Positions 3,646-37,000 of a stretch of DNA of 64,000 nt are shown one piece after another; the stretch's first letter is position 1, and the number at the start of each line of letters is the position of its first letter. The stretch covers positions 1 to 64,000 of the forward strand of contig JAIXSO010000020.1 in NCBI GenBank assembly GCA_027484685.1. Direction: 5' to 3'. Position numbers and translations under genes: made by a program. Origin of the DNA: Bacteroidota bacterium (GTDB lineage Bacteria > Bacteroidota > Bacteroidia > UKL13-3). A model generated the notes under the pieces. It searched no databases. It was given only the letters and a program-made list of their open reading frames with translations, and was not told the origin of the DNA.

Positions 3646-4281
3646 ATGAAAAATATAAAAATATTCATTTTGGCTTTAGTATTATCTATGCTTTTTATTA
3701 ATGCTGATTGTAACAAAGTAGAAGAAACACCTGCATTCTCAGGCTATATTTTAGAAGGGAGGTTAGTTAATAGTTGTACAGATAATTCTCCAAAAAAATA
3801 TTGGAATTTTATAATTTATGATGAGGCTGATTACAAAGGAAGGATATATGGAAAAACGGATAGCAATGGTTACTTTAAAATACTATCTAATTTAAAGGGT
3901 AGGAAATTAATTATGCAAGAGGAGCAAGGGAAAGGTATTTTGAACAATATACCTGGAGGTGAAAGTATTAACTTTGGAAACATTATTTATGATTTTGCTG
4001 TAAATTTAAATTTGAAATATCGAGGTTATTCATCCATAAAATTAGGAGATTCTCTAATATTTGATATGGGGCCGAATAATCGTCCATTTAGAATCATAAA
4101 AGGGCCACTAGTAAAAGAAAGTTTGGGTACCATTTCTATATCTACTATACCAACATTTTTATTTTTAGACTCATCAAAATTAAATGTTAAATTATATATA
4201 AATAGTTTTGTAAATCAGCCTATTATCAAATATGGGTTAATTGTTCCATGTGGTACAACTCAAGAAGTAATTTTTGACTAA
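3646..4281 (+). CDS. Small exported protein with carboxypeptidase-regulatory-like domain (copy 2)
   Basis: A 211-residue paralog of the protein at 2442. The signal region again ends in LFINADCNK. The EGRLVNSCTDNSPKKYW core, TDSNGYFKI and the PGGESINFGN strand are conserved, while the C-terminal third has diverged. It starts 2 bases after the relic sorting domain, keeping the arrangement of copy 1, and ends before its own hairpin. The domain family is inferred from the conserved Gly/Asn-Gly-Tyr-Phe pattern; function is unknown. Confidence 0.75.
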   Translation: MKNIKIFILALVLSMLFINADCNKVEETPAFSGYILEGRLVNSCTDNSPKKYWNFIIYDEADYKGRIYGKTDSNGYFKILSNLKGRKLIMQEEQGKGILNNIPGGESINFGNIIYDFAVNLNLKYRGYSSIKLGDSLIFDMGPNNRPFRIIKGPLVKESLGTISISTIPTFLFLDSSKLNVKLYINSFVNQPIIKYGLIVPCGTTQEVIFD

Positions 4282-4352: not shown

Positions 4353-4400
4353 ATACTGAAAAATAAAGTAATTTTATTAAACTTTTAATTGACTAAAACC
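4353..4400 (+). pseudogene. Vestige of a third sorting-domain 3' end
   Basis: These bases align with the last 45 or so bases before copy 2. TACTGAAAAATAAAGTAATT here corresponds to TACTGAAAAAGAAAGTAACT at about 3601, followed by the TTAAACTTTT stretch that encodes VKLL in the intact domain. Frame stops are present. It sits immediately before the ATG of copy 3, the same place the sorting domain has in copies 1 and 2. The region is short and AT-rich, so support rests on the matching position as well as the sequence. Confidence 0.55.
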
Positions 4401-5096
4401 ATGGGAATTATAAATCAAGCTAGAGGCTTGAACATAAAAACATTAATATTAGCTTCGGGGGTCTCTTTGCTTTTTATCAATGCTGATTGTAATAAGATGG
4501 AAGAAATGCCGTCTCCTGTTACTTGTCAAATAGAAGGTAGATTAGTTGAGAGCTGTAACAGTAGTTTGCCAATAAAAAATTATTCTTTTTCATTTCCTGT
4601 TGCAATTACTGAAAATAGTAATGGATACAATAAAACCATTACAACTGATAGCAATGGCTATTTTAAATTTTTCTATATTTATAATAGCAGCCAAGCTCAA
4701 TTTACTTTGTTTAAATTTATGGTGGATTCATTAAAAACAAAATATTTACTTAGAAATATTCCAACAGGTAAAAATTTAAATCTTGGCAATATACCCTTTA
4801 ATTTTACAGCACCTGTTAAAGTAAAATTCGCAAATTATAAAAGCATAAGTGTAAGTGACTCTGTGTATGTATATTTGTTTGGTGCTAGTTCTTTTTTTAA
4901 AAGTCAATACATTAAAGGTCCTTTAAATAGCGATATTTTAGGTACATTTGAATTGAAAGAAACTCCTTGTTTTGAAAATAGTGATTCCTCTTTTACATTT
5001 ACTTTAAGGCTTTATCAAAATAAAAATACTGTTCCAATAAAAGAAATAAAATATCCTATAACTCCTTGTGGAATTACTCAAGAAGTTGTTTTTTAA
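4401..5096 (+). CDS. Small exported protein with carboxypeptidase-regulatory-like domain (copy 3)
   Basis: Third paralog, about 231 residues, and the most diverged. It retains LLFINADCNK, IEGRLVESCNSSLPIKNY, TDSNGYFKF, the YIKGPL segment and the final QEVVF. A TTG at 4389 would extend the frame by four codons, but ATG 4401 aligns with the starts of the other two copies and is preferred. Unlike copies 1 and 2 it has no hairpin after it and leads, 16 bases later, into an outer-membrane barrel gene. Function is unknown. Confidence 0.72.
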   Translation: MGIINQARGLNIKTLILASGVSLLFINADCNKMEEMPSPVTCQIEGRLVESCNSSLPIKNYSFSFPVAITENSNGYNKTITTDSNGYFKFFYIYNSSQAQFTLFKFMVDSLKTKYLLRNIPTGKNLNLGNIPFNFTAPVKVKFANYKSISVSDSVYVYLFGASSFFKSQYIKGPLNSDILGTFELKETPCFENSDSSFTFTLRLYQNKNTVPIKEIKYPITPCGITQEVVF

Positions 5097-33878: not shown

Positions 33879-33902
33879 CTCGACAAAAAATATTTTGTCG
33901 AG
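33879..33902 (+). terminator. Hairpin after dnaK, overlapping the tRNA 5' end
   Basis: CTCGACAAAA pairs perfectly with TTTTGTCGAG around an AATA loop. There is no T-run after it. Its right arm supplies the first five bases of the tRNA-like sequence that follows. Confidence 0.6.
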
Positions 33903-33982
33903 GATGGCCGAGTGGTCGAAGGCGACAGACTGATAATCTGTAAACTGTAAAAGGTTCGGGGGTTCGAATCCCTTTCCTACCG
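33898..33982 (+). tRNA. Class II tRNA with anticodon GAT; serine-type body, probably a tRNA relic
   Basis: Folded by hand: T8 and G9, a 3-bp D stem (GCC/GGC), anticodon stem ACAGA/TCTGT with loop CTGATAA (GAT, Ile), a 16-base variable region with its own AACT/GGTT arm, T loop TTCGAAT and discriminator G73. The long variable arm, D arm and G73 are those of tRNA-Ser. A serine GCT loop would be CTGCTAA, one base different. The acceptor stem pairs only at positions 4-7 (AGGA/TCCT): the 3' side TCCTACC expects GGTAGGA, but the 5' side is TCGAGGA, borrowed from the dnaK hairpin. Two T-stem pairs are G-T. No CCA is encoded. It may be non-functional. Confidence 0.6.
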
Positions 33983-33992
33983 CATTCTAAAT

Positions 33993-34032
33993 GGGGGTAC
34001 ACATACGATATATAAATTGTATGTGTACCCCC
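33993..34032. terminator. Long hairpin between the tRNA and a minus-strand gene
   Basis: GGGGGTACACATAC pairs perfectly over 14 bp with GTATGTGTACCCCC around a 12-base AT loop. It probably ends transcription from both sides, though T-runs are short on each side. Confidence 0.6.
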
Positions 34033-34043
34033 TTTCGGTTTTA

Positions 34044-34652
34044 TTACCCCTTTTTTAGCCAGCCGGTTATACTCATTCTAGGTTGGTTGGTTATTAATAC
34101 TTCGTGTGGTAGTTCATTGCTTTTAAACAAAATGGTTTTACCCTGAGTTGGACTAATTATTTCAATGTTATTTTCTTGATAAACCATTAACTCTCCTCCA
34201 TCATCTTCCTGCCAATTTTGATTCAAATAACTAATCATAGAATAAGTTCTGCGTGAATCATTTTTAAATTGGTCAATGTGTTTTACGTAGAAACTGCCTT
34301 TGTTGTAAAGGGAATAATGGAATTCATAGTCAACTATTCCTGCAAAACAGGTCATGTTTAAATATTTAATAAATTGCTCTATTTGAGTAAAAAATAACTT
34401 TTCAGCCACGTTATTATTTTGCTTGTCTAGCCAAAAAATCAAATCACTTCTTACTTTTAAATTTAGGTTTAGCTTTTCAGCATTGCCAGTTTTAGCCATG
34501 ATAAGCAGTTCGTTTTGGTTTAAATCAACTAAATTTTGTTTTAGTTGATTTGCTAATTCAATACTTAAAAATTGGTTAGCAATTCCAATTTTATTCTCAA
34601 TAAAACTACTAATTAAGGTTTCAAACACATCATCCATAACATCACTAATCAT
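34044..34652 (-). CDS. 2-oxoglutarate/Fe(II) prolyl-hydroxylase-like protein (SM-20/PKHD type)
   Basis: A 202-residue dioxygenase. The iron ligands are HIDQFKN (His, Asp) and the later His in NELPHEVL. ArgMSITGWLKK at the end (QPRMSITGW) gives the 2-oxoglutarate Arg, and GGELMVY is a core strand. This fits the SM-20/EGLN-like bacterial family, some members of which hydroxylate ribosomal or elongation-factor prolines. The substrate is not predictable. Confidence 0.8.
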   Translation of the reverse strand: MISDVMDDVFETLISSFIENKIGIANQFLSIELANQLKQNLVDLNQNELLIMAKTGNAEKLNLNLKVRSDLIFWLDKQNNNVAEKLFFTQIEQFIKYLNMTCFAGIVDYEFHYSLYNKGSFYVKHIDQFKNDSRRTYSMISYLNQNWQEDDGGELMVYQENNIEIISPTQGKTILFKSNELPHEVLITNQPRMSITGWLKKG

Positions 34653-36025: not shown

Positions 36026-37000
36026 CTACCACCCTAAAATCCAAGCAAACATTAACGGAGCTACAATAGTTGCATCGCTTTCTACTATAAATTTAGGTGT
36101 ATGAATATCTAATTTGCCCCAAGTAATTTTTTCGTTAGGAACCGCTCCTGAGTACGAACCATACGAGGTGGTTGAATCGCTTATTTGGCAGAAATAACTC
36201 CAAAACGGAATGTTTTCCATTTCCATATCTTGGTATAACATGGGTACTACGCAAATAGGGAAATCGCCAGCAATACCGCCACCAATTTGGAAGAAACCTA
36301 ATCCTTTGCCTTCGCTATTTTTTACATACCAATCGGCTAACCAAGCCATGTATTCAATACCACTTTTCATGGTGCTGGCCTTTATTTCGTTTTTAATTAC
36401 ATAGCTAGCAAAAATATTTCCCATGGTGCTATCTTCCCAACCTGGAACCACAATTGGTAAATTGCGTTCAGCAGCAGCAAGCATCCATGAGTTTTTAGGG
36501 TCAATTTCGTAATATTGTTCCAACTCGCCACTATTTAAAATTTTGTACATGAATTCATGCGGAAAAAAACGCTCTCCAGCGGTGTCGGCATCTTTCCAAA
36601 TTTTATAAATATGTTTCTGTAGTCTTCTAAAAGCTTCTTCTTCTGGAATACAAGTATCAGTTACGCGGTTGTAATGGTTTTCTAATAAATCCCATTCATC
36701 TTGTGGGCTTAAATCGCGGTAGTTAGGTACACGTTTGTAGTGGCTATGTGCTACCAAATTCATAATATCTTCTTCTAAATTGGCACCAGTACAGCTAATA
36801 ATATCAACTTTCCCTTGGCGAATCATTTCGGCTAACGATTTTCCTAACTCAGCAGTACTCATAGCTCCGGCAAGGGTTACCATCATTTTTCCACCTTCGG
36901 TTAAATGGGTTTCGTAACCTTTAGCAGCATCAACCAAAGCAGCTGCATTAAAATGTTTATAATGTGTTTCAATAAAATTTGAAATAGGTCCTTTAGTCAT
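36026..37000 (-). CDS. Deoxyhypusine-synthase-like protein
   Basis: A 324-residue enzyme of the deoxyhypusine synthase fold (NAD-dependent transfer of an aminobutyl group from spermidine). GKMMVTLAGAMSTAELG and ISCTGANLEEDIMNL are the NAD-binding segments, and ITWGKLDIH carries the lysine aligned with the catalytic Lys of eukaryotic enzymes. Bacteria lack eIF5A, so the acceptor is probably a small polyamine, as in homospermidine synthesis. Alone and divergent from the DUF1801 fusion gene. The stop codon lies inside a short inverted-word sequence (36001-36029). Confidence 0.85.
   Translation of the reverse strand: MTKGPISNFIETHYKHFNAAALVDAAKGYETHLTEGGKMMVTLAGAMSTAELGKSLAEMIRQGKVDIISCTGANLEEDIMNLVAHSHYKRVPNYRDLSPQDEWDLLENHYNRVTDTCIPEEEAFRRLQKHIYKIWKDADTAGERFFPHEFMYKILNSGELEQYYEIDPKNSWMLAAAERNLPIVVPGWEDSTMGNIFASYVIKNEIKASTMKSGIEYMAWLADWYVKNSEGKGLGFFQIGGGIAGDFPICVVPMLYQDMEMENIPFWSYFCQISDSTTSYGSYSGAVPNEKITWGKLDIHTPKFIVESDATIVAPLMFAWILGW

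Follow-up and report, generated by a model that had tools for sequence, protein, structure and literature searches.

The window, a stretch of 64,000 nucleotides of Bacteroidota DNA, carries just 3′ of dnaK a tRNA-like element that joins a serine-type class II body to an isoleucine anticodon and in which the tip of the acceptor stem is open. The same structural class, defined by its fold, its open tip and its intact core, recurs across phyla. We put the chances at about even that the RNA from the window is an uncharged, tRNA-Ser-derived non-coding RNA that acts as a decoy or regulator and belongs to a recurrent mobile set. From the state of its acceptor, we infer that it functions outside translation.

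Structure of the element and its flanks

The element (33898–33982) is the only tRNA call in the window by ARAGORN, which reports it as tRNA-Ile(gat) at 33897–33981. Rfam RF00005 matches it at 33901–33978 with 44.7 bits (cut-off 29, E 2.8e-6); this match begins at model position 4 and covers positions 4–67 only, because acceptor pairs 4–7 form and pairs 1–3 do not. At a loose Rfam threshold, tRNA was the only meaningful match, and the others lay far under their cut-offs. A hand fold of the element gives a class II cloverleaf whose D stem has 3 bp, together with a 16-nt variable arm, a TTCGAAT loop and G73 (Table 1). U8 and G9 directly follow the acceptor 5′ strand, the anticodon stem is ACAGA/TCTGT, and the T stem GGGGG/CCCTT includes two G–T pairs. 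Acceptor pairs 1–72, 2–71 and 3–70 fail (TCG/ACC), pairs 4–69 to 7–66 form, and no break is seen in the D, anticodon or T stem. CA is encoded after G73 instead of the complete CCA.

Table 1. Features of the tRNA-like locus and its neighbours
Feature	Position	Strand	Basis
dnaK, upstream neighbour, 635 aa	31962–33869	+	ORF
Perfect palindrome CTCGACAAAA-AATA-TTTTGTCGAG, 10-bp hairpin	33879–33902	+	Sequence, folding
Acceptor 5′ strand TCGAGGA	33898–33904	+	nt 4–7 pairable with 3′ strand, nt 1–3 not
D arm, 3-bp stem GCC/GGC	33907–33923	+	Rfam match, hand fold
Anticodon arm, loop CTGATAA; anticodon GAT at 33932–33934	33925–33941	+	ARAGORN, Rfam, hand fold
Long variable arm AAACTGTAAAAGGTTC, 16 nt (class II)	33942–33957	+	Hand fold
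T arm GGGGG-TTCGAAT-CCCTT	33958–33974	+	Rfam match, hand fold
Acceptor 3′ strand TCCTACC, G73 (33982), then CA	33975–33984	+	Sequence
Intrinsic terminator, 17-bp stem GGGGGTACACATAC...GTATGTGTACCCCC then TTTCGGTTTT	33993–34042	+	Folding, terminator search
2OG-Fe(II) oxygenase gene, 202 aa, convergent, downstream	34044–34652	−	PF13640, 1.2e-21

These observations agree with most of the initial annotation of the element. The class II serine-like body that it described from the long variable arm, the 3-bp D stem and G73 is confirmed by the Rfam match and the hand fold, and the loop CTGATAA with its GAT anticodon by ARAGORN and the hand fold. Our recount likewise finds the top three acceptor pairs lost and the next four still formed, and the GGTAGGA 5′ end that had been predicted from the 3′ side was right. 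The annotation missed both the palindrome that overlaps the 5′ strand and the terminator downstream, whose 17-bp hairpin spans 33993–34032. Compared with a functional tRNA-Ser, the long variable arm, the 3-bp D stem and G73 are present, and a 7-bp acceptor stem and a serine anticodon are absent, the anticodon being GAT. Compared with tRNA-Ile, the class I body, which the tRNA-Ile(gat) of the host has (locus L002), is absent, as the 16-nt variable arm shows. The class II body, the isoleucine anticodon, the unpaired tip including pair 2–71 and the intact pairs 4–7, which mark the open-tip set described below, are present in the element, as is a terminator directly downstream.

The would-be acceptor stem shares its first five nucleotides with the 3′ arm of the upstream palindrome, and none of 60 shuffles of the upstream sequence paired with the acceptor 5′ strand of the window equally well. 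In the reading that we favour, the 5′ acceptor strand of the RNA pairs with the upstream leader and not with its own 3′ strand, and transcription stops at the terminator just downstream. Folding of the whole unit of hairpin, element and terminator is far stronger than that of shuffles (z −7.0), mostly because of the two flanking hairpins. The gene upstream is presumably dnaK, judging from the sequence of its product and what we know of DnaK/Hsp70. The convergent oxygenase gene downstream has phage homologues at 31–41% identity and is followed by a DEAD-box helicase gene. Farther along, on the minus strand (36026–37000), lies a deoxyhypusine synthase family gene (PF01916, 1.1e-42), here in a bacterial host.

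Between dnaK and the element we found no terminator, and the first one detected on the plus strand lies beyond the element. Together with a start of the unit within 10–29 nt of the dnaK stop codon, and with the absence here of the plain terminator that follows dnaK in the same-genus loci inspected, this arrangement would suit a dnaK 3′ UTR element, in which the hairpin, the tRNA-like fold and the terminator form a module for mRNA processing or stability and release no free RNA. We consider this improbable, as similar RNAs elsewhere sit in quite different places with flanks of their own. ARAGORN found no tRNA after dnaK in any of nine same-genus genomes (0/9), in one of which (L062) the helicase directly follows dnaK; the tRNA-like gene therefore appears to be specific to the lineage of the window.

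Recurrence of the open acceptor tip

The main search pattern was TGGCNGAGNGGN6GCN6CTGATAA, which combines a serine-type D arm with the GAT loop. A collection of 84,980 species genomes gave 35 matching stretches, viral contigs gave 16, and 63 other genomes of the order gave none. Most of the true tRNA-like matches are class II with an open acceptor tip, and serine-type class II bodies with isoleucine anticodons (GAT, TAT) recur in many phyla. Pairs 1–3 are open in 23 of 33 clusters with GAT or TAT, the window included, and in 1 of 52 clusters with other anticodons (Fisher p 5.4e-12), where clusters were formed at 85% identity and are not fully independent, and where the control anticodons are those of real phage tRNAs and not of a matched set of serine-derived bodies. 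These controls are long-arm bodies with the same D-arm pattern from the same viral collection, and their acceptors are complete.

We compared 25 open members, leaving out L107, which looks decayed across its whole acceptor. Pair 2–71 fails in 20 of them. Pairing is nevertheless kept in 98 of 100 cells at pairs 4–7 and in 122 of 125 in the anticodon stem, and most of these positions show several pair types. The loss is thus confined to the tip, which is not what free decay would be expected to give. This bears on the claim that the locus is a dead relic, in which a tRNA-Ser, either foreign or duplicated, would have inserted behind dnaK, with recombination or mutation then removing its 5′ acceptor end and the anticodon change being incidental. 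The element is a single copy, absent at this locus in the nine same-genus genomes and, by pattern, in the 63 other genomes of the order; tip loss would by itself inactivate a tRNA, and at least one relative, L107, does appear decayed across its acceptor. However, all remaining helices of the element are intact, and the loss falls at the exact site lost in other bodies with isoleucine anticodons, whereas random decay would spread over the arms. The class-wide pattern therefore weakens this reading, which we regard as unlikely, though a real contender for the window copy, which may have decayed recently and has no close relative in the genomes searched.

The open tip takes two forms. In the first, shared by the window, the Pseudomonas L088 group, the Acidobacteria members L093 and L102, and L105, L118 and L307, the 5′ side is changed and the 3′ side is near-normal. 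In the second, the 3′ side is changed, for example to ACCCTATT, as in L091, L100, L108, L120 and others. Many members of the class have no usable 3′ end. Two extra searches that left the anticodon free brought up L323 and L324 as further GAT members that share the tip, and L322, which has the leader and tip of its relatives with a different anticodon loop. They also gave an unrelated tRNA in five copies and four loci from the earlier searches. A leader ACCCCTTGCTTGCAAGGTA, the open tip and a terminator-like hairpin at the end are common to L120, L322 and L323. The isoleucine anticodon is thus a strong tendency and not a rule, and members with other loops are under-sampled because both the D arm and the loop were set in the main search pattern.

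A downstream terminator is common in the open class but not universal; under strict rules, it was found in 7 of 23 open clusters and in 3 of 52 controls. Among leader hairpins that overlap the acceptor, those of the window, the Pseudomonas group, L100 and L101 are strong. As a class-wide feature this hairpin was rejected, since it is not significant overall (median shuffle fraction 0.375).

Origin of the body and mobile setting

The host genome (4.5 Mb, 99.9% complete) carries normal tRNA-Ile(GAT), tRNA-Ser(GCT) and tRNA-Ser(TGA). No tRNA-Ser(GGA) was found among the host tRNA loci examined or among 30 loci of a relative (G003); in the same class, one is present (L050). The cellular tRNA nearest to the body of the element is the tRNA-Ser(TGA) of Bacteroidota and not the tRNA-Ser(GCT) of the host. 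The best matches among 395 genomes of the phylum reach 79–83%, and those inspected are tRNA-Ser(TGA). With this tRNA the element shares 81% core identity, a similar variable-arm motif (ACTGTAA-AGGT) and G73. In contrast, tRNA-Ser(TGA) is a normal tRNA with a full 7-bp acceptor and a TGA anticodon. Moreover, the D stem of the element has C12–G23 for A12–U23, and two-sided changes are also seen at anticodon pair 31–39 and at acceptor pairs 4–69 and 5–68. Such paired changes argue against a decaying pseudogene, although they could predate decay.

It had been suggested that the loop is one base from the serine GCT loop and that a normal tRNA-Ser(GCT) be sought elsewhere in the genome. The latter was found, and the former is true of the loop; the body, in core comparison, does not have host tRNA-Ser(GCT) among its 22 nearest sequences. 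An origin from that tRNA by one base was consequently rejected, as the bodies are too different and the resemblance is limited to the loop.

Closest to the RNA of the window is a GAT member on a plasmid (83% over the core), and the genomes searched held no close homologue of the window copy. Except for this plasmid member, near relatives from phages and plasmids were ordinary tRNA-Ser or tRNA-Tyr or unannotated partial matches.

Prophages and viral contigs carry members of the class, and others lie beside phage-type genes or elsewhere in accessory DNA; one is on a plasmid of Arthrobacter. Genus-wide pattern searches around the Pseudomonas and Mesorhizobium members gave matches in 1 of 399 and 8 of 146 genomes, respectively. 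Collectively, these results show that the class is patchy in distribution and associated with mobile DNA. Its neighbourhoods, where genes were mostly assigned by eye from protein sequences and not by family search, share no partner gene beyond clade-level synteny and common phage genes. The plasmid GAT member (L315, 2069–3084) adjoins a gene annotated AbiJ-NTD4, which matches the PADLOC candidate defence family PDC-S32. As partners, this gene and the nuclease- or phage-like neighbours of other members are suggestive only.

Other unusual tRNA-like loci were seen in these surveys. A GAT class II body in Acidobacteria (L079, match 4390–4421, minus strand) has an acceptor readable as 8 bp (CCGTGGGT/ACCCACGG) over a 5-bp T stem. 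Viral contigs (L188–L255, for example L188, L196 and L216) hold tRNAs with serine-type D arms, long variable arms and Asn (GTT), Thr (TGT) or Lys (TTT) anticodons; their acceptors are complete, many with encoded CCA. In the host genome itself, contig C46 of G000 has at about 3796–4090 (L334) a tRNA interrupted in the anticodon region, which RF00005 matches with 56 bits over 119 nt and ARAGORN reports as tRNA-Ser(act) with an intron. It also contains a second piece that resembles a T arm and repeats of the motif GGTCAA-N7-TTACTTC, and its neighbours (genes to 7499) encode a WYL regulator, a 746-aa protein with a weak Prok-RING match and the RNA-repair protein RlaP. We take this RNA to be reminiscent of bacterial Y RNAs with tRNA-like modules.

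Possible function and relation to known tRNA-like RNAs

Processing by RNase P, CCA addition, charging by SerRS and binding by EF-Tu are all expected to be inefficient on an acceptor helix without pairs 1–3. The open tip would thus block RNase P cleavage, CCA addition, charging, EF-Tu binding and decoding, and if processing and charging are blocked in this way, the RNA would work outside translation. The L-shaped body and the isoleucine-type anticodon loop stay intact and could bind a tRNA-handling protein. The likeliest role would be that of a decoy or regulator of an enzyme that identifies tRNAs by their body or anticodon loop. A non-translational RNA had been among the options first raised, and it is now the best-supported reading because the same open tip is present in many other serine-type bodies with isoleucine anticodons.

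The alternative that SerRS charges the RNA, which then places serine at AUC and AUU codons as proposed for allo-tRNAs, draws on the long variable arm and G73, which suit recognition by an enzyme that ignores the anticodon, and on recorded allo-tRNAs with serine identity and many anticodons (PMC7609411). The element, however, falls short of a 12-bp helix, as it has only four acceptor and five T pairs; pairs 1–3 are mismatched, CCA is not encoded, and the normal tRNA-Ile(GAT) of the host would compete; many members of the recurrent class lack a usable 3′ end as well. Serine insertion at isoleucine codons, suggested in the initial annotation, is thus quite improbable. Repair of the 5′ end by Thg1-like 3′-5′ editing before use is less credible still, to the point of being nearly negligible. 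The mismatches do fall in the first three acceptor pairs, which is where editing occurs in some protist mitochondria, but the isoleucine anticodon would persist after editing. Furthermore, Thg1 (PF04446) had no match in the host genome or in 12 other genomes that host the class, while a control archaeon genome matched, and the proposal of editing is left unsupported.

Two known systems resemble the RNA of the window in part. Allo-tRNAs (Mukai 2017, reviewed in PMC7609411) combine a class II body and serine-identity features with anticodons other than those for serine, UAU (Ile) being among the commonest, and occur in Proteobacteria, Acidobacteria and Clostridia. They share with the element a serine-type class II body and a non-serine anticodon. 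However, their defining feature is a 12-bp acceptor branch (8/4 or 9/3), and they are usable in translation (PMC7609411), whereas the element lacks this branch and has a 5-bp T stem, a 4-bp acceptor and an open tip. The tRNAOther of Bacillus cereus is a pseudo-tRNA beside island DNA that is unsuited to translation and has been suggested to belong to a larger RNA with a regulatory role; it has a Trp anticodon, is poorly charged with lysine and lies in a long flanking transcript (PMC3399842). The two are alike, by description only, as tRNA-like elements apart from translation, and differ in anticodon, Trp against GAT. On the features tested, the RNA of the window belongs to neither group, and by analogy it would work, if at all, more like tRNAOther than like allo-tRNAs.

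A literature search on tRNA-mimic small RNAs of prophages found nothing matching. We tentatively propose, at somewhat less than even confidence, that the class is a hitherto undescribed family of mobile small RNAs that mimic tRNA, borne by phages, plasmids and islands, whose tip was opened by selection and which serve as decoys or regulators of tRNA-handling enzymes, such as anticodon nucleases or a synthetase. ARAGORN reports such loci as tRNA-Ile, yet isoleucine decoding by them is unlikely. If the proposal is true, a mimic tied to the anticodons of one amino acid and to mobile DNA would suggest an unrecognised interaction of phages or plasmids with the tRNA machinery of the host, and the sequences of the class offer a ready set for testing it.
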